NCBI GenBank assembly: GCA_016933215.1
Contig: JAFGBH010000094.1
Location: 1-37,260 of the forward strand
DNA: 37,260 nt
Origin: Deltaproteobacteria bacterium
GTDB lineage: Bacteria > Desulfobacterota > Syntrophia > Syntrophales > UBA2210
Reading direction: 5' to 3'
In this document: positions 1,376-37,260 of the stretch, in pieces
Layout of the letters: every line of letters begins with the position of its first letter
Position numbering within the stretch: position 1 is the stretch's first letter
Notes under the pieces: generated by a model
Seen by the model: only the letters and a program-made list of their open reading frames with translations
The model's database searches: none
Told to the model about the DNA's origin: nothing
Translations under genes and position numbers: made by a program

Positions 1376-2626
1376 CTACTCGTATATTTTTTCTTCCTCG
1401 GCGAAGGCATCTTCCGCATCGGCCTCATAGTCACGGGGAAGATTTGCCGCCTTTTGCAGGAGAAATTCCCGGTACCATTCGTGCGCCGTTATCATCGACA
1501 TAACCTCGCTCGTTCCCGTCCAGATCGATGCGAGACGAACATCGCGGTAGATGCGTTCTATCGGAAATATGGTCGTATATCCGATTCCGCCCACGACCTG
1601 CATGGCATTGTGCACTGCCTTCTGACAGGATTCTGTTATAAACTTCTTGCTTTCCGATACCATGCGGCGAATGAGGTGCATATCGACCCCTTCGTCAACG
1701 GCCCGGGCCGTCGCATACCCCAGGGCGCGGGCCGCATCGAGGAGCATGACCGCCTCGGCAATCTGAAAGCTCACCCCCTCGAACTGGGCAATGATCTGGC
1801 CGAAGGCCTTTCGTCGTGATGTATAATTGGTGGCGATTTCGAGTGCCGGTCTCGCCGCTCCGATGGTCATCACGGCAGTCCCCAGACGTTCGGGAATCAT
1901 CATGGTATTGAAGACGGGATAGGCACCGTTTACCTCACCCAGGACATTTTCCTTCGGAACCTTGACGTCCTTGAAGATAAGACGTGCCGTTCCGCCGCCG
2001 CGGCATCCCATAAGACCGTAGAGATATTTTGTCTCCACTCCCTCCGTGCGATCGACGAGAAAAGCGGTGAGAGATTTTTGTGGTTTTGCCTCGGGGTCAA
2101 AATCGGTGCGGGCATAGACGAGAAAGAAATCAGCTCCTTCACCGCCCACGATAAATCGTTTCTGCCCGTTTAAGAGAAAATGATCACCCTTGTCCTCCGC
2201 CGTTGTCGTGGCGCCGAAAAAGTCAGACCCGCCCCGTGGTTCCGTCAGACATTCGGCGGCGAAGAGCTCTCCTTTCAGGAGGGGTTTTACGTACTTATCC
2301 TTCTGTGCATCCGTTCCATGGATTATGATGGCATCGCATACCAGCTCGGCTCCCACACCGAAGACGCAGGCAAATTCGTAGCCGAGTGTTCCGATCTCTT
2401 CCATCACCGCACAGGTCGTGACCCAGTCCATGTCCCTGCCGCCCCATTTCTTGGGATACCGGCATCCCAGAAGGTTTCTCCGTCCCGCTTCGCTCAGAAA
2501 TTCCTTCGGAAACTTGATCTTGTCCTTGTCCATGTCGAGAATCATATCTCTCGGGACCCACTTGACGAGATCACGGGCCTCATCCCTGATCTTTTTCTGT
2601 TCTTCCGTCAGCAAATAGTTGAACAT
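1376..2626 (-). CDS. Acyl-CoA dehydrogenase
   Basis: FAD-dependent alpha,beta-oxidation of an acyl-CoA thioester in the cytoplasm, passing electrons to electron-transfer flavoprotein (family knowledge). The 416-residue product shows the N-terminal helical domain, the flavin signature CLTEPRGGSDF (126-136) and the C-terminal domain with SRRKAFGQ (270-277) and VVGGIGY (344-350). At the position where medium- and short-chain enzymes carry the catalytic Glu (usually Y-E-G-T) this protein reads W-T370-G-T. A Glu occurs instead at 246 in PERLG, matching the helix-G base of isovaleryl- and long-chain-type enzymes, so the active site is probably intact but of that class. The substrate cannot be read. 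AAAGGAG precedes the ATG. It is transcribed alone and ends at the 1292-1337 terminator. Confidence 0.93.
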   Translation of the reverse strand: MFNYLLTEEQKKIRDEARDLVKWVPRDMILDMDKDKIKFPKEFLSEAGRRNLLGCRYPKKWGGRDMDWVTTCAVMEEIGTLGYEFACVFGVGAELVCDAIIIHGTDAQKDKYVKPLLKGELFAAECLTEPRGGSDFFGATTTAEDKGDHFLLNGQKRFIVGGEGADFFLVYARTDFDPEAKPQKSLTAFLVDRTEGVETKYLYGLMGCRGGGTARLIFKDVKVPKENVLGEVNGAYPVFNTMMIPERLGTAVMTIGAARPALEIATNYTSRRKAFGQIIAQFEGVSFQIAEAVMLLDAARALGYATARAVDEGVDMHLIRRMVSESKKFITESCQKAVHNAMQVVGGIGYTTIFPIERIYRDVRLASIWTGTSEVMSMITAHEWYREFLLQKAANLPRDYEADAEDAFAEEEKIYE

Positions 2627-2918
2627 ATTTTCTCCTTTCTCTATATGTACTCAACCGCTTTTGTGTACGATTGGAGGAAAGATACCGTCTGTGATCATGC
2701 GGGATCGGAATATTTTTGCGAAGACTACCAATTTGCATGAAGATTGTAAAGGAGAAGCTTTTTACTTCTCCGTCTATGGCGAAAAATCTCTACAGGGATA
2801 TGCACTCATTCTCCCTGCTGTTATTGCTTAATATTTTAATAGCTTGGTATGTGTGATATAGAACTATAGTACACCATCAAATCAGCACAATAACCTTATA
2901 GAAAGATAAGGAGGGAAT

Positions 2919-4556
2919 ATGATGGAGGCAATTCAAAACATTTCTCAATGGGTTCAGTCACTCGCCCAGGGTTTTATCAAGGGGAACGACCTCTGGCAGA
3001 TTGTCCTTTCAGTGGCGATATTGGTTGCGGGTTTTGTACTCCTTGAATTCCTGTGGCGATTTTCCAACCGGCAGATGGGGAAGGTCCTGAAGAAAGGGGT
3101 GCTCAAGGAGTGGGTGCCTTATGTTTCGGGCGTTTTCCCCATACTCCGGCTTGCCTTTGCCGCATTCATCCTGAAGGTTGCAGCGGCTCCCCTGTTATTG
3201 CCCGAACAGCTTACAACACTCCTCGCCGGACTGGAGATGTTCCTCGTTGCAATGGCTCTGATGTTTTTCGTCTTTCTTCTTGTCAGTATGCTCGACCTTG
3301 TTAAGCTGGTAATGCCGGTGGGAACGAGACGGAAGCTTTCGACGAAGGCCTTTAAAAACCTGAAGGGAACCCTCCGAATTGTGGGGGTTGTCATTGCCGC
3401 GGGATTCTTTGTCTATACGCAAAAGGCACTCTTCCCTGAATGGCTCTGGAAATCGGCATGGTGGGACTACCTGCTGATCGTGATCGTCTTTGCCGTTATC
3501 TACATCGGCGGCAGGCTCTTCTCGGTTTTCTTGGAGACCATGACGGATGCAATGAAAGATACGGAAGAGAAGGCCCATCTCAGGCTGATTTTATCAGCGG
3601 CCATCTGGCCAATACGATTTCTGCTCCTGGCAATTGCTGTGTATGCGGCCAAGGAAATCTTAACGCTTCCCGAGGGTGCCAGTTCGATACTGGCAACACT
3701 TGTCAGTGTCCTCGGTGCCCTCGTTGTGGTGCTCTTTCTCTACCGACTCCTCGATGTCCTGGAATACCAGTTAACCAGATTCGTCATGCGAGACGACAAC
3801 GAGTTCGACATGAATTTCGTTCAGATGGTGAGGATAGTGACACGGACAATTGTTATCATCTTCGGTGTTATTTATCTTCTCAAGGCGGCAACGGGCAAAC
3901 CGATGACGACGCTCCTGGCCGGCCTCGGGATCGGTGGCCTCGCCGTGGCACTGGCCGCACAGGATACGTTAAAGAATCTCTTTGGCAGTTTCATGCTCAT
4001 GATCGACAAGCCTTTCGGCGTCGGCGACTGGGTCCTGGTTGAGGGTACCAACGGCAGGGTGGAAGAGATAGGATTTCGCTGTACCCGGATACGTAATTTC
4101 TGGGGACACCTCCTCTCCATCCCCAATGAAAAAATGGCATCCATCACGATCGAGAATGTTCAGTCTCGCCCCTATATCCGAAGGTGGATGAATGTGACAA
4201 TTACCTACGATACACCACCCGACAAGGTGGAACGGGCCGTTGAGATCATCAAGGAAATCCTGAAGGACAGCCCCGATCTTGATCCGAGTAATCCCCCCAA
4301 GGTCGTGTTCAATGATTTCAACGATGCCTCTTTGAATATACTTGTCGTATACTGGTTCAGGCACAATGACTACTGGAAGTCAATAGAATTTAATGAAGTT
4401 GTCAATTTTGAAATTCTCCGTGCCTTCAATGAGGAAGGTATAGAGTTTGCCTTCCCCACAACGACGACCTATCTTGCGCACGATGACCGGAGGCCGCTTA
4501 CCATTTCGCTCTCGGGTGGACCGGAGGGTGACATGGAGGTGCCGCTGACCGGTTGA
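2919..4556 (+). CDS. Large MscS-family mechanosensitive channel
   Basis: Inner-membrane channel that releases small osmolytes on hypo-osmotic shock (family role). The 545-residue protein is about twice the size of minimal MscS. The N-terminal part, to about residue 320, contains roughly six hydrophobic segments (for example around 27-45, 65-90, 100-125, 145-160, 175-190 and 230-270). The pore-lining helix and beta domain follow: AGLGIGGLAVALAAQDTLKN (345-364), a Gly/Ala-packed TM3 typical of MscS, then DKPFGVGDWV and the PNEKM region. AAGGAGGG stands just upstream of two adjacent ATGs (2919 and 2922), and the first is used here. The gene is divergent from the acyl-CoA dehydrogenase. The 292-bp gap between them should hold both promoters, but none can be named with confidence. 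The extra N-terminal helices suggest an added sensor or paddle module. Confidence 0.93.
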   Translation: MMEAIQNISQWVQSLAQGFIKGNDLWQIVLSVAILVAGFVLLEFLWRFSNRQMGKVLKKGVLKEWVPYVSGVFPILRLAFAAFILKVAAAPLLLPEQLTTLLAGLEMFLVAMALMFFVFLLVSMLDLVKLVMPVGTRRKLSTKAFKNLKGTLRIVGVVIAAGFFVYTQKALFPEWLWKSAWWDYLLIVIVFAVIYIGGRLFSVFLETMTDAMKDTEEKAHLRLILSAAIWPIRFLLLAIAVYAAKEILTLPEGASSILATLVSVLGALVVVLFLYRLLDVLEYQLTRFVMRDDNEFDMNFVQMVRIVTRTIVIIFGVIYLLKAATGKPMTTLLAGLGIGGLAVALAAQDTLKNLFGSFMLMIDKPFGVGDWVLVEGTNGRVEEIGFRCTRIRNFWGHLLSIPNEKMASITIENVQSRPYIRRWMNVTITYDTPPDKVERAVEIIKEILKDSPDLDPSNPPKVVFNDFNDASLNILVVYWFRHNDYWKSIEFNEVVNFEILRAFNEEGIEFAFPTTTTYLAHDDRRPLTISLSGGPEGDMEVPLTG

Positions 4557-4701: not shown

Positions 4702-4759
4702 GAATTGAGAAGCGAGCATTCCCCGCTGCTTGCGGCGGGATTGCGGGGAGCTTCATTAT
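4702..4759 (+). repeat. REP-like palindrome, part 2 of the two-part unit
   Basis: An imperfect palindrome built on ATTCCCCGC on the left and GCGGGGAGCTTCATTATT on the right, with an inner GC hairpin (CCGCTGCTTGCGGCGG). Relatives occur at 13409-13446, 16893-16936 and 37107-37176, sharing CATTCCCC and/or GGGGAGCTTCA. The TAA stop of the lysine-rich gene on the minus strand (4756-4758) falls inside the end of this element. Confidence 0.75.
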
Positions 4760-5106
4760 TCGGCCGGTGCTTCGGCTTCCTTCTTTTTCTTTTTTTTCTT
4801 CTTTTCTTTGTCCTCTTCGGACGAAGCCTCGGGCGCCTTTTCCTTTTCCGCTTTCTGTTTTTTCGGGGCCGCGAGCCTGTCGGCCTTTATCTTTGCCAGC
4901 TCTTCCGTTCTTTTTGTGATCTTGGCGAGTGCCTCCACTCTGAGGTTCATTTTTTTTACTTTTGCTTTAAGATTTTTTAAGATGGTATCCTTCGCAATCC
5001 CTTGAGGATCGATTCCCTTTTCGACAAGGTATGAACGTCGTTCATTCAGTTTTGCCTCAAAATAGGCCTTGTGCCCTACGACTGTTGCTTCCTGTTTGGA
5101 ACCCAT
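4756..5106 (-). CDS. Lysine-rich small hypothetical protein with coiled-coil character
   Basis: I do not recognise this 116-residue protein. It has a charged helical N-terminal half (residues about 1-70, basic, beginning MGSKQEATVVGHKAYFEAKL) and an extremely basic/acidic low-complexity tail with a run of nine lysines followed by EAEAPAE. There is no signal peptide, membrane segment or cysteine. The ATG at 5106 is preferred over the one at 5133 because GGGAGAG precedes it at about 7 nt, while nothing suitable precedes 5133. The tail is encoded by long A-rich tracts (seen as poly-T on the plus strand), which are prone to slippage. Nucleic-acid or ribosome contact through the basic tail is possible but is only inference from composition. 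Confidence 0.7.
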   Translation of the reverse strand: MGSKQEATVVGHKAYFEAKLNERRSYLVEKGIDPQGIAKDTILKNLKAKVKKMNLRVEALAKITKRTEELAKIKADRLAAPKKQKAEKEKAPEASSEEDKEKKKKKKKKEAEAPAE

Positions 5107-28131: not shown

Positions 28132-28716
28132 CTACAATCTTTCGAGGCATTTCTTTGCGAGATCACTGGCGAAGGCTATGGCCTCTTTTGCATCATCCGT
28201 ATTGGGATGGTCGGGATAGGTTTTCATGATGTGGTGAAAACCGTGACATTTAAACCTGCCAATTGAGGTATCTCCCAATTTCTTCTCCATACAGTCCAAG
28301 CATATTTTTGCCGTCAGGGGGCCAAACCCCGGAGCACCGTAAGTGACAAAGACGGCGGAGTATTTCGCGGGTTGTACCTGGGACAGAAACTGCTTGATCT
28401 TCTTCGTCGGCATACCGGTATGAACCGGTGATCCGATGATGATAAGGTTGTAGGACCTGAGATCGTACTTGTCGATGTCGTCGATAAAAACGGCGTCGCA
28501 GCCGAGCTCGTGGGCGATCACCTCGGCAATCTTTTTCGTATTGCCCGACCAGCTGTCATAAATAACAATCGGTCGGAGTGTTTCGGCTATCGGAGAGACC
28601 GATTCCGCCTTTGCCGGTTGTTCGGGTTTTGGTGTGACCGTTTTCGCGCCGGTGCAGCCGAAGATGAGAAGGCTGGCAACGAGTATAATAAGCGTGTAGA
28701 GGCTGAGTTTTTTCAT
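28132..28716 (-). CDS. Lipoprotein flavodoxin-family protein
   Basis: The 194-residue product opens with MKKLSLYTL, a hydrophobic segment, and a lipobox LIFGC with the lipid-accepting Cys at 21. A short Pro/Lys-rich linker follows, then a flavodoxin domain from about 48: IVIYDSWSGNTKKIAEVIAH, with the FMN-phosphate loop (SGNTKK), and a second FMN loop SPVHTGMPT. This predicts an FMN protein tethered to a membrane and facing the periplasm, or at least exported. Flavodoxins are normally cytoplasmic electron carriers. Two cysteines (CLDC) lie near 138-141. AAAGGGGGG precedes the ATG. A candidate promoter lies at 28737-28771. It is first in the row flavodoxin-sir2-solenoid-addB-addA. Confidence 0.87.
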   Translation of the reverse strand: MKKLSLYTLIILVASLLIFGCTGAKTVTPKPEQPAKAESVSPIAETLRPIVIYDSWSGNTKKIAEVIAHELGCDAVFIDDIDKYDLRSYNLIIIGSPVHTGMPTKKIKQFLSQVQPAKYSAVFVTYGAPGFGPLTAKICLDCMEKKLGDTSIGRFKCHGFHHIMKTYPDHPNTDDAKEAIAFASDLAKKCLERL

Positions 28717-28839: not shown

Positions 28840-29679
28840 TCAGCCGGAATCGCCCCCACGCAATTCCTCTTCATTATCGTCGGCCTGCCCACGGTAGAAA
28901 TCATAGACGCCGGTGTACCGCAGAAATGTCGACATGATGGCAGGGTGGATGGCATCGAGGAGCTTCATCACGATAATTGCGCCGGGGCTCACGATAGTCT
29001 CCTGAATGTCCTTCTTGATAGCCCGTATCACGGCACGGGCAACTTTTTCGGGAGTTGTCTCGCCGACGATTCTTGGTGCTCGTTTGTCGTAAACGGCAAA
29101 CATGCCGACATTGGAGACAAAACCGGGGCATATGACGGATACACCGATACCAGTTTCCTTCAGTTCCTGTCGAAGACCGCTCGTCCATTCAATCAGTCCC
29201 GCCTTTGTGGCGGCATAGGTGGCGGAATAGGGTGATCCCTTTTTGCCCCCCAGCGATGACATGGTTACGATATGTCCGCTTTTCCGTTCAAGCATGTGGG
29301 GCAGTACCAGTCTCGTGAGCACCATCGGTCCCATCAGATTGGTTTTGATGATGCGCCGTATATGATCCGGCGAGAGGCTGACATAACGGCTCACCCATTC
29401 GATGCCGGCGTTGTTTACCAGGATGTCGATGGTACCGAGGGTTTCAATCGTTTTCTCAATGAGGTGTTGCAAAGATGCTTCATCAGTGATGTCGGCGGGA
29501 ATTGCCACGGTGCGAATGTTATGGGATGAGAGATTGTCTGCAACTTTATTCAGTTCCTCTTCGGAGCGTGCGGCAAGGGCGATGTTGATTCCCTCTCCTG
29601 CAAGTGCCTCAGCAATAACCGGTCCAAGGCCGCGAGAACCCCCTGTAAGAAGAGCATTCTTTCCCTTGAGATTCTTCAT
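28840..29679 (-). CDS. Classical short-chain dehydrogenase/reductase
   Basis: NAD(P)-dependent oxidoreductase acting on a hydroxy or keto group. The 279-residue product has the cofactor motif TGGSRGLG (about 12-19), NNAG (about 89-92), and the catalytic Ser with YAATK (Ser in MSSLGG about 146, Tyr/Lys about 159/163). The extra C-terminal part, with hydrophobic character (MKLLDAIHPAIMSTFLRYTG), suggests a membrane-associated lipid-type substrate. AAAGGAGG precedes the ATG. It is last in the six-gene operon, 101 bp after the nitronate-monooxygenase-like gene. The substrate cannot be read. Confidence 0.92.
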   Translation of the reverse strand: MKNLKGKNALLTGGSRGLGPVIAEALAGEGINIALAARSEEELNKVADNLSSHNIRTVAIPADITDEASLQHLIEKTIETLGTIDILVNNAGIEWVSRYVSLSPDHIRRIIKTNLMGPMVLTRLVLPHMLERKSGHIVTMSSLGGKKGSPYSATYAATKAGLIEWTSGLRQELKETGIGVSVICPGFVSNVGMFAVYDKRAPRIVGETTPEKVARAVIRAIKKDIQETIVSPGAIIVMKLLDAIHPAIMSTFLRYTGVYDFYRGQADDNEEELRGGDSG

Positions 29680-29780
29680 CGCAGTTTCCTCCTTTATACA
29701 TCTCCGTGAAGAAAATATCAGCCTCTCTCAAAACCGAAAAAAGGGAGAAAAGTTCAAAGAGGTTGCGTTCTCCCCGTATA

Positions 29781-30737
29781 TCAGTCAGAAATCCCTCTCT
29801 GAAGTGATCGTACCACCGCTTCGGCCTCTCGAATTACGTTGTCTATCACGTCTTTGACGCTCTTGATCTCTCGTATCATTCCTCCGATCTGACCGCAGTA
29901 GACCGAGCCCTCTTCGATATCTCCCTCGATGCTCGCAATGGCGGAACGGCCCTCACCAATGAGATCAAAGATTTCATCCTGTGTTGCTCCCCGTCTTTCC
30001 GCATCGAGTATCATTTCTGTCAGCCTGTTCTTTATCCCCCGTGTGGGTCCCACGGTCGTTCTTCCCGTAAGGGTCGTCCCGTTTGCCCCTACCTTCAGGA
30101 TGGCTTCCTTGAAGCGGGGATGGGCCGCCGATTCGTGAGTGGCAACGAAACGCGTTCCCATCTGTACCCCCTTCGCACCGAGGGACAGCGCGGCCACAAA
30201 ACCCCTGCCATCGGCGATGCCTCCCGCTGCGACAACGGGAACGGTAACCGCATCCACTACCTGAGGAATAAGTGCCATCGTCGTAATCTCATCAAATCCG
30301 TCATGACCGCCGGCTTCAATTCCTTCTGCAATGACAATATCAACTCCGGCATCAGCGCATTTCTCAGCGAAAGAGACTGATGGAACCACATGCATAACCG
30401 TACAGCCCAGATCCTTTATCTGCCCCGTTAATTTTTTGGGGCTTCCCGCCGATGTCGCAACCACGGAGGCACCGCCCTTTACTGCTCTCTCTATCAGATC
30501 CCATGCATCGGGTCTCGCAAGGGGTACATTGACGCCAAAGGGTTTTGACGTTATCTCTCGTACCTTTTCTGCTTCTTCTGACATTTCTTCCAGGGTCATT
30601 CCACCCGCAGCGAGGAGTCCGAGTCCCCCCGCCTCCGATACGGCGGCCGCCAACTCCGATTTTCCGATCCACACCATCCCGCCGAGAATAATGGGGTATT
30701 CAATCTTCAAAATGTCGCAGAGTTCCGTTGTGAACAT
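29781..30737 (-). CDS. Nitronate monooxygenase / FabK-type FMN enzyme
   Basis: A TIM-barrel FMN protein of the 2-nitropropane dioxygenase family, 318 residues. It shows GGMVWIGKSELAAAVSEAGG near the N-terminus, the Gly-rich phosphate-binding blocks VVAAGGIADGRGFVAALSLGAKGVQMGT, and EAGGHDGF (the His-containing active-site loop). The family covers nitronate monooxygenases, FabK enoyl reductases and other flavin reductases. In an anaerobic setting an enoyl-thioester reductase role is at least as likely as nitronate oxidation. Good ribosome-binding site (AAGGAG). Located 50 bp after the HpaB/AbfD-family gene in the same operon. Confidence 0.88.
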   Translation of the reverse strand: MFTTELCDILKIEYPIILGGMVWIGKSELAAAVSEAGGLGLLAAGGMTLEEMSEEAEKVREITSKPFGVNVPLARPDAWDLIERAVKGGASVVATSAGSPKKLTGQIKDLGCTVMHVVPSVSFAEKCADAGVDIVIAEGIEAGGHDGFDEITTMALIPQVVDAVTVPVVAAGGIADGRGFVAALSLGAKGVQMGTRFVATHESAAHPRFKEAILKVGANGTTLTGRTTVGPTRGIKNRLTEMILDAERRGATQDEIFDLIGEGRSAIASIEGDIEEGSVYCGQIGGMIREIKSVKDVIDNVIREAEAVVRSLQRGISD

Positions 30738-30787
30738 GAAAATTCTCCTTTCATAAATTGTAGTGTCTCGGTGTATACCTTCAGCCC

Positions 30788-32227
30788 TTACACATTCAAG
30801 CCGACAATAGTTTTTGCCTTTTTCTTGTACTCTTCGATAGGCGCCTCAACCATGAGCATCATCTTCTGCGATGCAAAGGACCCCTCGGCATGAATGGTAC
30901 ATACTTCGTGCCAGGCGGCAAAATCGCTTCCCACCGTGTGATGAAGCGAACTCATTAATTTCAGACGCTCTTCGGCAGTGTATCCCGACGCACCGCCCAT
31001 GTATTTTCGAAGGTAGGGGTTCAATTCGGGATTTTCCCAGTCTCGATAGGTCGGTTGTGTTACCAGGAGACCTCCCGAGATATCCTGGATGTCACGGACA
31101 AACTCGTGAAAGTTTGAAGCGAAGAAGAGCTTTGCCATATTGCAGGTAAGACGGTTCGGGACGAAGAGACCGGAGCCGCCGAAATCCTCGGGCTCGTAGA
31201 GGGCGGCCCTCGCGAGGGACTTTGTCGTTTCCGTGTATTTTATCATGTTGACAAAGATCTCCCGGACATGGGAGGCCTTGCTCACGCCGTTGGCATCGGC
31301 GGCGAGCATGCCGAGACCGGTCATAAACTCCAGTATCGGTATCTTATAGGTAACTGCCGTAAAGCGGTGGAATGCTGCAAAGGCATAGGTCAGAATCTGG
31401 GCAAACTGCCATTCTCTCAGCATAAATACGCGTTCTTTCGGGACACGGACGTTATCGAAGATGAGGAGCGATTCCACGTGCCCCCTTCGGGGATGAGGTG
31501 TGGGAAAATGATTTGTGTCCTCGAAGCGGAAGTTTGGTCTGCATATCTGGGTTATACCCGGTGTATTTACCGGTATGGCAAATGCCACGGCATAGTCGGC
31601 CTCCGCCTCGGTCAGGTTTCTCGTTGGTATGACAAGGATTTCGTCGACATAGACACCCGCCGTGATGTGCGCCTTTGCGCCGGAGACCACGATCTCATCT
31701 TCAGTCTCATCCACAACCCTCACGTAGTAGTCGGGACTTTCCTGTTCGCTCGGGCCCTTTCTCCTGTCGCCTTTTACATCGGTCACCGCGCCCGCCATTG
31801 AAAGATCGTTTCTGGCACAGTATCGGCGATAGTTATCGATTCGCCCTTCGTACTCCTTATTTCCCATGAGACGGGAGGCGACCTTGATACCGTTCATGAT
31901 ATCGGTCCCCACATCCTTGACAAAAGGGATCGCTCCATCGGCGTAGTAGCAGGCCTTCAGTATAAGATTGTGCCGTCGTTTGATTACTTCGGGTACGTCG
32001 GGCACTTCAAAATAGGTGCTTATCTCTTCCCCCGTTTCAGTGTCCTTCATGACGGCGATTTCCCTCATCTCCGGGTCATGGCCCATAAGAAAATCGTGGG
32101 CACCCGTTTCCACCCCTACCTTGATATAGGGGTCTTCGGTCACGTCGGGAACGGGATTTCCCAAGAGGTAGACCTTTCTCCCGTCTCGCAGTCCTTCTCT
32201 GTATTCTTCCGCTGTTCTCAGCGCCAT
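30788..32227 (-). CDS. HpaB/AbfD-family flavoenzyme (4-hydroxyphenylacetate 3-hydroxylase / 4-hydroxybutyryl-CoA dehydratase family)
   Basis: A 479-residue FAD-binding protein with an acyl-CoA-dehydrogenase-like fold. The family blocks are RHNLILKACYYADG (85-98), TDVKGDRRKGPSEQ (149-162), GAKAHITAGVYVDEILVIPTR (about 183-203) and AAFHRFTAVTYK (284-295). In 4-hydroxybutyryl-CoA dehydratase (AbfD) a [4Fe-4S] cluster is held by three Cys and one His (from memory C99, C103, H292, C299). Here His287 is kept, but position 294, seven residues on, is Tyr. Only one Cys (93) is present in the N-terminal region, so at least two Cys ligands are lacking. A two-component hydroxylase would need O2. The reaction is therefore open: a redox-neutral isomerisation or hydration at flavin is possible. 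TAAGGAGG precedes the ATG. Confidence 0.87.
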   Translation of the reverse strand: MALRTAEEYREGLRDGRKVYLLGNPVPDVTEDPYIKVGVETGAHDFLMGHDPEMREIAVMKDTETGEEISTYFEVPDVPEVIKRRHNLILKACYYADGAIPFVKDVGTDIMNGIKVASRLMGNKEYEGRIDNYRRYCARNDLSMAGAVTDVKGDRRKGPSEQESPDYYVRVVDETEDEIVVSGAKAHITAGVYVDEILVIPTRNLTEAEADYAVAFAIPVNTPGITQICRPNFRFEDTNHFPTPHPRRGHVESLLIFDNVRVPKERVFMLREWQFAQILTYAFAAFHRFTAVTYKIPILEFMTGLGMLAADANGVSKASHVREIFVNMIKYTETTKSLARAALYEPEDFGGSGLFVPNRLTCNMAKLFFASNFHEFVRDIQDISGGLLVTQPTYRDWENPELNPYLRKYMGGASGYTAEERLKLMSSLHHTVGSDFAAWHEVCTIHAEGSFASQKMMLMVEAPIEEYKKKAKTIVGLNV

Positions 32228-32281
32228 TATAATCCTCCTTATTATATACTTTGTGCCTTTGTAACTGTGTGCCTTTCTACC

Positions 32282-34159
32282 TCAATCCAGCGGCTTCATC
32301 ATCTCCCTCAGTTTCGCCATGAAGCCCACATCGCCTTCGATCTTTAGTTTGCCCGTTACCACGGCGGTGATGCCGTCAAGCTTTCCCGTGGCGATGTCGT
32401 GGTAATCGCTGTCTTTTGCAAAAAGATAGACCGTGGGTTCTTTCAGGATACCCTCTGTCAGGGTCATTTTCTGGTCTTTAATGGTGACTGTCCACTTTCC
32501 GCCGCCTTTGCCGGTGATATTGTAGCTCACCGTGGCCTCTACTCCCTCGGCCTTCTCCGGTATGAAACGGGGGGGCATCCCCTCGAAGAGGTATGCGACG
32601 GGGACCGGTTCTGCCGTGGCTTCCTCTTCAAGCTCCTTGATGAGGTCTTTTTTTATGACCTTCCCCACGGCATTGGTGGGAAGCCCTTCGCGAAAGACGT
32701 AATATGCGGGAACCTTGTAGTCGGCCAGGTGCTCCCTGCAGAAGTCCCTCATTTCATCTTCCGTGGCCTCTTCACCCCGTTTGAGTACGATGCATGCCTT
32801 GGCGACCTGGCCGTATTTCTGATCCGATTCCGGTATGACGGCAACCTGGCTTATCTTCGGATGGGTATAGATGATGCTCTCCAGTTCCTTTGGATAGACG
32901 TTGACACCGCCGCGGATTATCATGTCCTTTATGCGGTCCACGATAAAGAAGAATCCATCTTCATCGACGTAGCCCACGTCGCCCGTGTGGAGCCATCCCT
33001 TTTTTATGGTGTCTGCCGTCATCTCGGGATTGTTGAAGTATCCCTTCATGACGTTATCGCCTTTTACGACGATCTCGCCGATTTTTCCCGTGGGGAGTTC
33101 GTTATCCTTTTCATCGAAGATCTTGACTTCGATTCCCGCAAATCCCATTCCGATAGAACCGTCTTTTCGTTTGTCGAGATGGTTTGCCGTGGTGCCCCCC
33201 GTGTTTTCCGTTGAACCGTAGGCCTCGATTATGGGGATATTGAATCGTTGCTCGCACTCTCTTAACTGTTCGGGAGGAATAGGTGCCGCTCCTGAAAGAC
33301 CGAATTTGAGAGAACTTGTATTCACGGTTTTCGATTCCGGTGCATTGAGGAGAATGTTCCACATGGTGGGAACGATATAAAAGGCATTGACCTTATACTT
33401 TTCCACACACTCCCAGAACTCGGTTGCCGAGAAGCCGCGCCTGAGAACGATTGAAACACCACGATAGATACAGGGATAGGAAAGGTCATTCAGGCCGCCC
33501 GAGTGGAAGAGGGGAAGGACACAGAGGGCTATATCGCCCGCTTCGAGGGGGAAGGGCTCTGTTTTGATTTTTGCGCCGAAGACCGTACCCCAATGGGTGA
33601 GCATTACACCTTTCGGTGTTCCCGTCGTTCCCGAGGTGTACATGATGGTCGATACATCATCCGGGAGCGGCGGATTGTCGAGATCGAGCTTTCCCGCATG
33701 GGACGCGATGATATCGGGAAGATACTCATGGGCATAATCCAGCTCCATCGGGTTCGGTGAATTGATAACGACCGTTTTAACCGAGGGCATTTTATCCTTT
33801 ATTGCCGATACGATAGGGGCATATTCAGCATCCATGACGAGGACCTTCGGCTTCGAGTCGTTCACCAGGAATTCCACTTCCTCCGCCTGCCACCAGCAGC
33901 TGATCGGGCCGCCGATTGCACCGATCTTCTGGGCGCCGAGAAGCGTGTAGAAATAATAGGGGCTGTTCCCCAACATGTATGAGACGATATCTCCCTTTCG
34001 TACGCCCTTCTCGATAAGAAATCTGGCAACGGCATCGGTTCTCTCATCGAGATCCTTATAGGTCACGATTTCGTCGTAGAAGTTCAGAAATGGTATGTCG
34101 GCATATCGCTCGGCGTTTTCCCTGACCAGCCTTTCTATGGTCCTGATTTCTTCTCCCAT
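32282..34159 (-). CDS. AMP-dependent acyl-CoA synthetase fused to a C-terminal SCP2 sterol-carrier domain
   Basis: Activates a carboxylic acid to its CoA thioester via an acyl-adenylate. The 625-residue product has the P-loop-like TSGTTGTPKGVMLTH (about 174-188), the A5-type block YGSTENTGG, and the A8 block TGDVGYVDEDGFFFIVDR. The terminal catalytic-lysine region reads LPTNAVGKVIKKDL. After about residue 515 a separate domain of about 105 residues (FIPEKAEGVEATVSYNITGKG through FMAKLREMM) matches SCP2, a hydrophobic tunnel that carries lipids or acyl chains. SCP2 on a ligase is uncommon and suggests a bulky or lipid-like substrate. GGGAGGG precedes the ATG. The gap to the preceding SDR gene is 32 bp. 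Confidence 0.9.
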   Translation of the reverse strand: MGEEIRTIERLVRENAERYADIPFLNFYDEIVTYKDLDERTDAVARFLIEKGVRKGDIVSYMLGNSPYYFYTLLGAQKIGAIGGPISCWWQAEEVEFLVNDSKPKVLVMDAEYAPIVSAIKDKMPSVKTVVINSPNPMELDYAHEYLPDIIASHAGKLDLDNPPLPDDVSTIMYTSGTTGTPKGVMLTHWGTVFGAKIKTEPFPLEAGDIALCVLPLFHSGGLNDLSYPCIYRGVSIVLRRGFSATEFWECVEKYKVNAFYIVPTMWNILLNAPESKTVNTSSLKFGLSGAAPIPPEQLRECEQRFNIPIIEAYGSTENTGGTTANHLDKRKDGSIGMGFAGIEVKIFDEKDNELPTGKIGEIVVKGDNVMKGYFNNPEMTADTIKKGWLHTGDVGYVDEDGFFFIVDRIKDMIIRGGVNVYPKELESIIYTHPKISQVAVIPESDQKYGQVAKACIVLKRGEEATEDEMRDFCREHLADYKVPAYYVFREGLPTNAVGKVIKKDLIKELEEEATAEPVPVAYLFEGMPPRFIPEKAEGVEATVSYNITGKGGGKWTVTIKDQKMTLTEGILKEPTVYLFAKDSDYHDIATGKLDGITAVVTGKLKIEGDVGFMAKLREMMKPLD

Positions 34160-34191
34160 GGTTATTCCCTCCCTTTGAAATTATCGTTAGA

Positions 34192-35223
34192 TTATAGTCT
34201 GAACCATCCGTTATCCCTGTACCAAGTGAGCGTTTCTTTCATCCCTTCATGCATCGTCGGGTAGAGGAATTTAAAACCTGTTGCTTTGAGTTTTGTGTTA
34301 TCCCATATCCTGTCGCAGGAAAGGTAGTGGAGCGTTGCCTTTTCAAGGAGCGATTTCGTACCGAGTATTCCCGCCACAAACTGCGACACCACAGCAACGG
34401 GTATCAGGACATTCTTGGGAATATGACAAAACTCCTTTTCCTCCCCCAGAAGTTCCCTCGATATCAGCCTGAAGAATTCGGCCGTTGTGATACGCGTATC
34501 GTCGCTTACATTGTAGGCCTCACCGATCATGGCTTCATTCTCGCCGGCGTAAAGCGCCGCCCTGCAGACATCCTTTACGTGGACGAAGGCCTCGGTCCTA
34601 TCTCCTCTGCCGATCATGAGGAGCTTTTTCTTTTTACGGTCTTTATAGACCTGACTGAAGGCGTTGTAGAGGCCATACTCGCATCTCGTACCGTAAATAG
34701 CGGCTGGCCGCAGGATTGTTGCGCGAAGATTATTTTCTTTTATGTGGTTCCATACCACCTGTTCCCCCTCCCATTTGGTGATATTGTAGTTGTTGAGAGG
34801 CGGCGTCAGTTTTCTGTTATCCTCTTTGACAGGAGTTTTCGTGTACCAGTCATAGCCGTAAACACCCACCGAGGACCAGTGCACCAGACGATTAACACCG
34901 GAGGCGAGGGTGGCTTTGCAGATGTTTTCGACACCACCAACATTGATGGCGCGTATGACCCTGTCGGAGGTGGAGTAATCGTGGATGCCGGCAACATGAA
35001 ATACACAGTCAACTCCCTCGGTGAGTCTCTCCAGCCCATCAGCACGTGTCAGATCGGAGGCGATGAATTCAACGTCGAGAGCCTCGAACATGGCGCTGTA
35101 ATGGCGGCTCGAAATATCGGTCGCCCGTACTCTGAAGCCTGCCTTTACGGCCGCCATTACCATATGATGCCCGGTAAAACCGGCCGCACCGGTTACAAGC
35201 ACCAGTCCTTTTTTTTCCGTCAT
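34192..35223 (-). CDS. Extended SDR, NAD-dependent epimerase / 3-beta-hydroxysteroid-dehydrogenase-like
   Basis: A 343-residue extended short-chain dehydrogenase. It starts with the NAD motif TGAAGFTGHHM (11-21), has HVAGIHDYS, the active-site Ser in HWSSVGVYGYD, and YNITK as the YxxxK pair (about 148-152). It then has a C-terminal substrate domain resembling 3-beta-hydroxysteroid dehydrogenase/isomerase or NAD-dependent epimerase proteins. This likely oxidises or reduces a cyclic or chain alcohol rather than a sugar, given its operon partners, but that is inference. AGGAGG precedes the ATG. The gap to the AOR gene is 12 bp. Confidence 0.9.
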   Translation of the reverse strand: MTEKKGLVLVTGAAGFTGHHMVMAAVKAGFRVRATDISSRHYSAMFEALDVEFIASDLTRADGLERLTEGVDCVFHVAGIHDYSTSDRVIRAINVGGVENICKATLASGVNRLVHWSSVGVYGYDWYTKTPVKEDNRKLTPPLNNYNITKWEGEQVVWNHIKENNLRATILRPAAIYGTRCEYGLYNAFSQVYKDRKKKKLLMIGRGDRTEAFVHVKDVCRAALYAGENEAMIGEAYNVSDDTRITTAEFFRLISRELLGEEKEFCHIPKNVLIPVAVVSQFVAGILGTKSLLEKATLHYLSCDRIWDNTKLKATGFKFLYPTMHEGMKETLTWYRDNGWFRL

Positions 35224-35235
35224 GATTGTCCCCTC

Positions 35236-37080
35236 CTAATGTGAAATTTCCAGTCGGTCAAGAACACCAGGTGTCGGGTGTCCCCTTTCATCCCACCCCC
35301 GCAGCCGGTAATACTTTTCGAGCATGCTGTCGAGTTCGATGGGCGGCCATCCGTCTTCTCGGACTTCGTTAAGCAGGCGCGCGGGAAGAGTGTCGTCGTC
35401 TCTCGATATTCCTTCGCGGCTGTTCATTAAGCGTTCGAGGTTAAAGATCCTCTCACCGATTTCATAGTAATCGCCTTTTGTGATTTTGAATCCGAGAAGT
35501 CCCGACATAAGACCGGCGTAGTCGGAAAGATCGGTGGTCTTGACCGCAATGGCGGGGAGGTTTCGCATAATAAACTGCATGATCGGCATTGGCGTGTATT
35601 TGTAGGCAAAGTTTTCTTCGAGAAAGGGGTACATGGTCTGTATGCAAAAAATCGATGAATTGATGGCGTCGGTGACATCCTGCATAAACCTGACGAAGTG
35701 GGGTTTCCCCTTCGTTCCGTGCTGGCTGAGGTAGGTGTTGACTTCAATTGCGTGCGTACTCCCCGAAAGATGTGTGGCACCGCAGTTTGCCGTCGCATAT
35801 GCGAGTCCCTGACCGGTGCATCCCCTCGGATCATAGGCCGCCATTTCGAGGCCCTTGACGTTTATGGCAAAATCTTCGCCGCCGAACTTCTCGGCGAGTC
35901 TCCGCGTGCCCTCGGCAAGCTCATTTCCGAAACCCCTGCGGTGGGCGATGTCTTCCAGTATTTCTGCGATGCCGTCGGGATTTCCGAAGGAAAGATCGCT
36001 CTGGATGATTCCCCGTTCGGTCAGTTCCATGACAAAGGCGATGGTGCTTCCGGTACTGATGGAATCCATGCCCAGCCGGTTCAGTTTTTCGTTCCATTCT
36101 GCGATGGTGGAAATGTCACCGATCATGAGATTTGATCCCATGAGTCCTATGGTTTCATACTCGGGAGATACCAGCTCTCTGCCGTTAAATCGTCCCATCC
36201 GCCCGCACTGAATGGGGCATCCGACACAGCCATGGTTTTTGAGGAAGTGTTCGTCCCGTATTTTTTCCCCGGTGAGCCCATTCATCTTGTCGAAACTCGT
36301 CCGGTTGAAATTCCTGACCGGCATGATTCCCGATGTGCCGTAGATTTTCACATTCTGGGGAGTTCCGAGATCACGAAGATCTTTGCCCGTGTTGGGGTGA
36401 GACTTGACCTTTTGCTGGGCTTTTGTTACCGCTTTTTTGAATACTATCGAATCGGCGGGGCCGAATTTTTTACCGCCCTTCGCCACGATACCCTTGAGAT
36501 TTTTCGATCCCATGACCGTTCCAAGTCCGCCACGTCCTGCAATCCTTCTCCCTGTCGCAATGACGGCAAAGCGGACACTGTTTTCTCCGGCGGGGCCGAT
36601 GGTGACCCAGTCTCCCTCGTTTTTATGCGCTTCCTGAAGATCATAGGTGTCCATTCCCCAGAGAGAAGATGCATCCTCTATGGAGACCTGATCGTCGATT
36701 ACCTTGATATAGACGGGAGACGAAGCCTTTCCTCTGACCATGATGCCGTCGTAACCGGCCCTCTTAAGGCTGAGGCCGAACCTTCCGCCGGCAAGGGATG
36801 AAACGAATATGCCGGTGAGGGGTGATTTCCCGGCCACGATAAAACGGCCTCCGGCGGGAGATTGTGTTCCTGCCGTGGGGCCGGTCATAAAGACGATGAT
36901 ATTCTCCGGTGAAAGGGGGTCAACTCCGGGTGCTATGTTATCGTAGAGGAGTTTAAGGGCGATCCCCTTACCACCCAGGTAGCGGCGTCTGTCCTCTTCG
37001 GTTATCGAAATGGTGCTCGTTTTACCCGAGGTTAAATCGATAGCAAGAACCCTGTCATTGACGGCATGTGAGCTTTTCAT
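35236..37080 (-). CDS. Aldehyde:ferredoxin oxidoreductase (tungsten/molybdenum-pterin family)
   Basis: Interconverts an aldehyde and its carboxylate with ferredoxin, in the cytoplasm. The 614-residue product is the usual AOR length (about 605). The N-terminal domain shows DLTSGK, LGGKGIALKLLY and GTQSPAGGRFIVAGKSP, which bind the bis-pterin cofactor. The [4Fe-4S] ligands are CVGCPIQC (Cys285, 288, 292) and, by position about 135 residues from the end, Cys479 in SSIFCIQ. The C-terminal GERIFNLERLMNSREG motif is typical. AAGGGG lies a few nt before the ATG. It is the first gene of the six-gene operon. AOR is a strong marker of an anaerobe. Confidence 0.95.
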   Translation of the reverse strand: MKSSHAVNDRVLAIDLTSGKTSTISITEEDRRRYLGGKGIALKLLYDNIAPGVDPLSPENIIVFMTGPTAGTQSPAGGRFIVAGKSPLTGIFVSSLAGGRFGLSLKRAGYDGIMVRGKASSPVYIKVIDDQVSIEDASSLWGMDTYDLQEAHKNEGDWVTIGPAGENSVRFAVIATGRRIAGRGGLGTVMGSKNLKGIVAKGGKKFGPADSIVFKKAVTKAQQKVKSHPNTGKDLRDLGTPQNVKIYGTSGIMPVRNFNRTSFDKMNGLTGEKIRDEHFLKNHGCVGCPIQCGRMGRFNGRELVSPEYETIGLMGSNLMIGDISTIAEWNEKLNRLGMDSISTGSTIAFVMELTERGIIQSDLSFGNPDGIAEILEDIAHRRGFGNELAEGTRRLAEKFGGEDFAINVKGLEMAAYDPRGCTGQGLAYATANCGATHLSGSTHAIEVNTYLSQHGTKGKPHFVRFMQDVTDAINSSIFCIQTMYPFLEENFAYKYTPMPIMQFIMRNLPAIAVKTTDLSDYAGLMSGLLGFKITKGDYYEIGERIFNLERLMNSREGISRDDDTLPARLLNEVREDGWPPIELDSMLEKYYRLRGWDERGHPTPGVLDRLEISH

Positions 37081-37176: not shown

Positions 37177-37260
37177 CTTAAACCCGATAATCGGGATAAG
37201 TGCGTTAACGAAATTATTTTCTGCCAGAAAACACAGAAAATAAATTCTAACTTACTAAAC

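Follow-up and report, generated by a model that had tools for sequence, protein, structure and literature searches.

The 37,260-nt contig JAFGBH010000094.1 (assembly GCA_016933215.1) from a Deltaproteobacteria bacterium of the order Syntrophales, which is called the window hereafter, carries a run of six genes between positions 28840 and 37080. All six open reading frames were confirmed on the minus strand (Table 1), and they encode a predicted tungsten-type aldehyde:ferredoxin oxidoreductase (AOR), an extended short-chain dehydrogenase/reductase (SDR), an acyl-CoA ligase fused with an SCP2 domain, a flavoprotein of the HpaB/AbfD superfamily (HpaB-like protein), an FMN enzyme of the nitronate-monooxygenase (NMO) family, and a classical SDR. 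These known families probably compose a catabolic module, apparently an undescribed one, which is built around a flavoprotein fitting neither of its namesakes.

The intergenic spacings from the AOR gene to the classical SDR gene are exactly 12, 32, 54, 50, and 101 bp, and each of the six genes is preceded by a Shine-Dalgarno-like sequence, mostly of a strong GGAGG type. An initial annotation, made from the sequence alone, had described six genes on the same strand with these spacings and these families, and the description agrees with both the positions of the open reading frames and the Pfam domains; the strong ribosome-binding site that it gave to every gene was indeed found at most of them, the one of AOR being weaker (GAAGGGG). 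It is plausible that the six genes constitute a transcription unit, and we infer from the sequence that they are transcribed as an operon. In the region, a promoter scan gave 6 matches against 7.3 in shuffled sequences (i.e., no excess), and a terminator scan gave 16 against 9.1, a result that is left uninterpreted.

Table 1. Features of the six-gene run and of the adjoining end of the window
Feature	Positions	Strand	Domains or remarks
Predicted tungsten-type AOR, 614 aa	35236..37080	-	Pfam AFOR_N and AFOR_C
Extended SDR (eSDR), 3beta-HSD/epimerase type, 343 aa	34192..35223	-	Pfam Epimerase and 3Beta_HSD
AMP-forming acyl-CoA ligase with C-terminal SCP2, 625 aa	32282..34159	-	Pfam AMP-binding, AMP-binding_C, and SCP2
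HpaB/AbfD-superfamily flavoprotein without AbfD [4Fe-4S] ligands and HpaB catalytic residues, 479 aa	30788..32227	-	Pfam HpaB_N and HpaB
NMO-family FMN enzyme, FabK-like, 318 aa	29781..30737	-	Pfam NMO
Classical SDR (cSDR), 279 aa, final gene of the run	28840..29679	-	Pfam adh_short
Partial copy (~57 bp) of a dispersed 130-bp repeat at the contig end	37204..37260	.	Same repeat terminates contig C5

The gene layout is beyond chance: copies of the same genes occur together elsewhere, with identities of roughly 58–83%. When a collection of species genomes was scanned for close relatives of the HpaB-like protein, four loci with 70–76% identity were hit in a Desulfobacterales metagenome-assembled genome (MAG), a Desulfobacteraceae MAG, a SAR324 MAG, and a “Deltaproteobacteria” MAG (Myxococcota according to the tree tool), and neighbouring genes of the set were present at all four. 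The whole or partial set was found in 12 distinct genomes, mostly of bacteria of the sulfate-reducer type, from Desulfobacterota, SAR324, and one Myxococcota MAG; namely, G000 (the window genome), G005, G134, G173, G778, G800, G844, G950, and the hosts of the loci L053, L054, L055, and L056. Of these loci, L055 belongs to genome G385 and L054 apparently to G838. The initial annotation had let its proposal depend on the genes occurring together in at least one relative, and with this recurrence the idea survives. The gene order is mostly kept: AOR-eSDR-ligase/SCP2-HpaB-NMO-cSDR is intact in G000, L054 (with one gene inserted ahead of NMO), L055, and G844, three genes are inserted ahead of cSDR in G950, NMO is placed after cSDR in G005, and L056 retains the order without AOR. 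The genes are rearranged in G778, interrupted by contig ends in G800 and L053, and spread over several contigs in G173, and G134 has retained only TetR-ligase-HpaB-NMO.

Orthologs of the HpaB-like protein are a discrete group, given that the identity jumps from ~49% (E ~1e-141) to at least 70% (E <1e-230), and the eight orthologs in the tree form one clade with support of 100/100. Few genomes carry them: 2 of 155 in the order, 4 of 395 in the phylum, 6 of 389 in the order to which G385 belongs, and 1 of 52 in the SAR324 phylum. So patchy an occurrence suggests horizontal transfer or repeated loss. Carriage of the set by plasmids or viruses was rejected, because no ortholog was found on plasmids or viral contigs, both of which were searched. 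Furthermore, all six genes are under strong purifying selection; the Nei-Gojobori dN/dS between L054 and L055 was 0.04–0.08 in each of the six genes, and between the window and G005 it was 0.05–0.14, the latter with synonymous sites near saturation and with HpaB not computable. We also observed at L053 that the HpaB-like gene (2237–3673) has one in-frame TAG within an otherwise conserved frame and that the following cSDR gene (4711–5052) is frameshifted, either by sequencing error or by gene decay. In the genome of L072, which also holds the full six-gene set, one contig (L072 1–5842; G535:C223) carries a second AOR (64% identity), TetR, a zinc alcohol dehydrogenase, an extended SDR (53%), and a classical SDR, and is possibly a partial duplicate of the module.

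The closest solved relative of the HpaB-like protein is AbfD, 4-hydroxybutyryl-CoA dehydratase (1U8V, E 3e-62; 6VJR was also named in the comparison). In every ortholog, C99, C103, and C299 of AbfD are replaced by Ala, Asp, and Tyr, and three of the four [4Fe-4S] ligands are thus gone with only H292 kept; T190, E257, and K300 are retained together with H292 in every ortholog, Y296 and Q101 are also replaced, and E455 is Cys or Leu. When the window protein was aligned with HpaB of T. thermophilus, furthermore, R100, Y104, and H142 were found to be replaced by V106, I110, and G146. With the catalytic and ligand roles that we take these residues to have in the two reference enzymes, we rejected identity with AbfD by the incomplete ligand set and identity with the oxygenase of HpaB hydroxylase by the replacement of all three catalytic residues. 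The score against the NCBIfam model HpaB-1 is 176 with a cut-off of 480, and no HpaC flavin reductase partner was found among the genes of the cluster. The label HpaB/AbfD of the initial annotation hence stands at the level of the superfamily, with both of the defining active sites absent.

Regarding more distant relatives, AbfD-like paralogs (roughly 30–34% identity) retain the cysteines except for one divergent sequence (L033), those at 43–48% identity likewise lack the ligands, and three at ~40% retain some; the monophyly of the wider group to which these last two sets belong is poorly supported (81/51). Paralogs of the same family with ~45% identity are located outside this gene cluster. 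On Rhodococcus plasmids, HpaB-like members with 38% identity and without the ligands adjoin acyl-CoA synthetase genes, and the one in R. opacus is also near genes for alcohol and aldehyde dehydrogenases, a CoA-transferase, and a biotin-dependent carboxylase. A CoA ligase is thus found beside the HpaB-like protein in two unrelated lineages, which suggests that the protein may act on an acyl-CoA and would not require strict anaerobiosis. AlphaFold models built from four-row alignments were of low confidence, with a mean pLDDT of 40 for the HpaB-like protein and 54 for the extended SDR, and were not used. A second, related operon type was also noticed in the same bacterial order (L042 246–6031, L046 4640–14147, and L050 3658–8437), which is composed of TetR, a classical SDR, a 3-hydroxyacyl-CoA dehydrogenase (not seen in L050), an extended SDR, an HpaB-like protein without the cluster ligands (45–48% identity), and a protein of the Asp/Glu racemase family, with Amidohydro_2 in L046.

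As for the other enzymes, the closest solved relative of AOR is that of P. furiosus (1AOR, E 5e-121), and all of the P. furiosus residues tested (R76, R182, C288, C291, C295, E313, H448, and C494), which include the four Fe–S cysteines and the active-site E313 and H448, are retained along with the AFOR domains. AOR is hence predicted to be of a tungsten type, to contain tungsten, and to oxidize aldehydes; a benzoyl-CoA reductase of the BamB type was rejected, because the match to 4Z3W (E 8e-59) is far weaker than that to 1AOR. In the SAR324 genome, an ortholog of AOR is missing (the best match covers part of the protein at 43%), and a second extended SDR at the cluster end is followed by a gene for an NAD aldehyde dehydrogenase, which is apparently a non-homologous replacement of AOR and points to aldehyde oxidation as the role of AOR. 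In the ligase, the SCP2 domain is recognized separately in Pfam (residues 535–622), and the fusion is retained in orthologs. The NMO protein scores 237 bits against Pfam NMO (gathering score, 28), which is the name of a family and not of an activity; its best NCBIfam model is FabK (TIGR03151; 335 bits, under the curated cut-off of 453.1), and the solved structures nearest to it are those of FabK enoyl-ACP reductases. The motifs are TGAAGFTG and YNITK in the extended SDR, which is 53–78% identical to the copies at related loci, and TGGSRGLG and YAATK in the classical SDR.

The locus extends past position 37080. The window is an entire contig (G000:C102) terminating 180 bp upstream of the AOR gene within a dispersed repeat, and the conserved upstream neighbours in related genomes are a TetR gene in the same direction and a divergent gene for enoyl-CoA hydratase (crotonase). 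TetR (60–74% identity) and the divergent crotonase (59–69%) are present at G005, L055, L056, G778, G844, and G950, and TetR adjoins the ligase gene in G134. In the window genome, their orthologs are found at the end of contig C5, where an Amidohydro_2 gene and then a START-domain gene come next, and C5 terminates in the same repeat as the window does. While the six genes of the initial annotation are real, therefore, they are not the full extent of the locus; we infer from synteny that C5 and C102 join upstream of AOR, since the repeat alone, with at least 40 genomic copies and several of them at contig ends, is no proof of the join. The repeat is probably the reason why TetR and crotonase are on a separate contig. 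TetR scores best against the FadR model, albeit under its cut-off.

The repeat itself is a 130-bp intergenic element with a 14–15-nt inverted repeat (GAATTTATTTTCTG ... CAGAAAATAAATTC), and was noted at 37204–37260 in the window and at 37221–37350 and 38501–38630 in G000:C5. Many of its copies are at contig ends, and the tetR gene has a copy on either side. It resembles a small mobile or repeat element that is non-coding, and the palindrome at the window end is not specific as a TetR operator because it is part of this multicopy sequence. On the other side of the run, a gap of 123 bp separates cSDR from a gene on the same strand for a flavodoxin-domain protein with a lipoprotein-like N-terminus (28132–28716), which is followed by a Sir2 gene; neither belongs to the conserved set as far as seen. 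In G844 (L099 18002–19901), a molybdopterin-binding-domain gene and a ferredoxin-like gene come after the divergent crotonase and possibly serve AOR.

Genes of beta-oxidation accompany the set. A FadI-like thiolase and a FadJ-like protein are encoded within the operon of G950, where a CoA ligase, crotonase, 3-hydroxyacyl-CoA dehydrogenase, and thiolase are thus all together, and L055 has pieces of thiolase and 3-hydroxyacyl-CoA dehydrogenase (3HCDH) between cSDR and a second extended SDR; most other copies have the ligase and crotonase only. Near crotonase are also the START-domain gene in G000 and a DUF2505 gene in G778, which together with SCP2 give weak hints of a hydrophobic substrate.

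Taking the directly observed layout, families, conservation, AOR residues, loss of the cluster ligands, and beta-oxidation and regulator neighbours together, we consider, with a probability of roughly 0.55, that the six genes form the central part of a catabolic operon, under TetR control and patchy in its distribution, which would take a hydrophobic alcohol, aldehyde, or acid to beta-oxidation. The substrate, flux direction, and every individual reaction are predictions from sequence. The extended SDR would oxidize a hydroxyl group (alcohol to aldehyde), and AOR would convert the aldehyde to a carboxylate with low-potential electrons passed to ferredoxin, a step that the NAD aldehyde dehydrogenase would take in SAR324. 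The ligase would then form a CoA thioester with the oily chain held by SCP2, the HpaB-like protein might desaturate the acyl-CoA or shift its double bond, and the FabK-like enzyme might reduce an enoyl or dienoyl intermediate, with the divergent crotonase, classical SDR, and FadI/FadJ presumably completing hydration, oxidation, and thiolysis. The catabolic role is strengthened by the FadI/FadJ-like genes in one copy, the conserved divergent crotonase, and the FadR-like TetR, and the Rhodococcus relatives beside acyl-CoA synthetases also support the proposal. Weighing against it, FadI/FadJ are inside just one intact copy, the window genome has no FadIJ adjoining the operon, and the reduced set of G134 means that both SDRs and AOR may be peripheral. 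AOR and SDRs are, furthermore, reversible, and the flux direction is hence not fixed by the gene content.

The initial annotation had proposed that the run may encode an undescribed anaerobic catabolic pathway, and took SCP2 and a steroid-dehydrogenase-like SDR as hints of a hydrophobic, perhaps cyclic, substrate. Catabolism is made more likely by FadI/FadJ, crotonase, and the FadR-like TetR; strict anaerobiosis is called into question by the NAD dehydrogenase of SAR324 and the Rhodococcus relatives. No description of this gene combination was found in the literature searched (open-licence PMC papers), and “undescribed” holds within that range. The hydrophobic substrate is weakly favoured by SCP2 and START/DUF2505, and nothing steroid-specific was seen, with NCBIfam steroid models all under cut-off (SdmB, 62.6 of 600; steroid-24-oyl-CoA synthetase, 293 of 750).

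A bolder, anaerobic route, in which the AbfD-fold flavoenzyme without the cluster would carry out an acyl-CoA reaction of a new kind (a flavin-only elimination, isomerisation, or desaturation) on the way from a branched or cyclic hydrophobic aldehyde to beta-oxidation, is doubtful as a whole. It is unlikely that the operon breaks down a cyclic or aromatic carboxylate, with the ligase forming a ring acyl-CoA, the two flavoenzymes adjusting the ring, and crotonase or an amidohydrolase opening it; an Amidohydro_2 gene does adjoin crotonase in G000 and G005 (80% identity) and another lies at L046 along with an HpaB-like gene of 45% identity, but none was found at the other orthologous loci, the hydroxylase residues of HpaB are absent, and no benzoyl-CoA-type genes were recognized within the cluster. 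Quite unlikely, too, is a gamma-elimination/lactone pathway, where a lactonase and the ligase would supply a 4-hydroxyacyl-CoA and the HpaB-like protein would act like AbfD with flavin alone replacing the cluster. AbfD is indeed its closest solved relative with H292, T190, E257, and K300 retained, and a gene of the phosphotriesterase family, which includes lactonases, is inserted beside HpaB in L054. Also, BbuA is a cluster-free flavoprotein that performs C4 elimination (PMC8364193), which keeps this alternative alive; BbuA is, however, of the acyl-CoA dehydrogenase family with ~10% identity to AbfD, the phosphotriesterase-family gene is in one genome only, and Y296, Q101, and E455 are replaced as well as three of the four cluster ligands.

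We regard as improbable an operon for making or remodelling lipids, in which AOR would form an aldehyde by reducing an acid, and a long-chain product would be built or modified by the FabK-like enzyme together with the SDRs. AOR is reversible, SCP2 can bind lipids, the enoyl reductase relatives are biosynthetic FabK, and the extended SDR is weakly similar to OleD; the OleD score of 82.7 is nonetheless far under the cut-off of 580, the loci share no conserved acyltransferase or OleA, degradative FadI/FadJ-like genes and crotonase accompany the set, and the SAR324 aldehyde dehydrogenase favours oxidation. Aldehyde detoxification has been described as the role of simple AORs (PMC13328260), but an operon chiefly clearing reactive aldehydes with its remainder loosely associated is very improbable, because the ligase, HpaB-like protein, and NMO are the constant core and are present even without AOR.

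A catabolic operon leading to beta-oxidation is our preferred reading, and the gene set is a discrete, selectively maintained cluster common to uncultured Desulfobacterota, SAR324, and one Myxococcota MAG; naming its substrate would extend the known carbon sources of anoxic sediments. Annotation easily mistakes proteins of the HpaB/AbfD superfamily without Fe–S ligands for 4-hydroxyphenylacetate hydroxylase or 4-hydroxybutyryl-CoA dehydratase; the HpaB-like protein permits a direct test of how AbfD-type chemistry depends on the cluster.

In comparison with known systems, the HpaB-like protein is of the same superfamily as AbfD without its [4Fe-4S] ligand set, and shares Pfam HpaB_N and HpaB with HpaB without the catalytic residues and without a flavin reductase gene in the cluster. 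The benzene-activation “Magic” cluster of Desulfobacterota is likewise conserved and uncharacterised with an AMP ligase and flavoproteins, but its core is a GlcDEF-like trio and a class III CoA-transferase, and the text names no AOR, NMO, SCP2, or HpaB (PMC13101534); that trio and transferase are absent among the recognized genes of all our copies, and identity with this cluster was rejected by the different core. The NMO protein differs from FabK in scoring under the FabK cut-off and in an operon context that is not fatty acid synthesis. Compared with the tungsten AORs of P. furiosus and Aromatoleum, all tested pterin, Fe–S, and active-site residues are kept in the window AOR, whereas conservation does not extend to two residues to which the bridging metal is bound in the P. 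furiosus dimer; unlike those AORs, it sits in an acyl-CoA operon. With beta-oxidation operons (FadIJ and TetR of the FadR type), some copies share crotonase, the ligase, FadI/FadJ-like proteins, and the FadR-like TetR, but the core of the window set has no acyl-CoA dehydrogenase and adds AOR, two SDRs, the HpaB-like and FabK-like flavoenzymes, and the SCP2 fusion.

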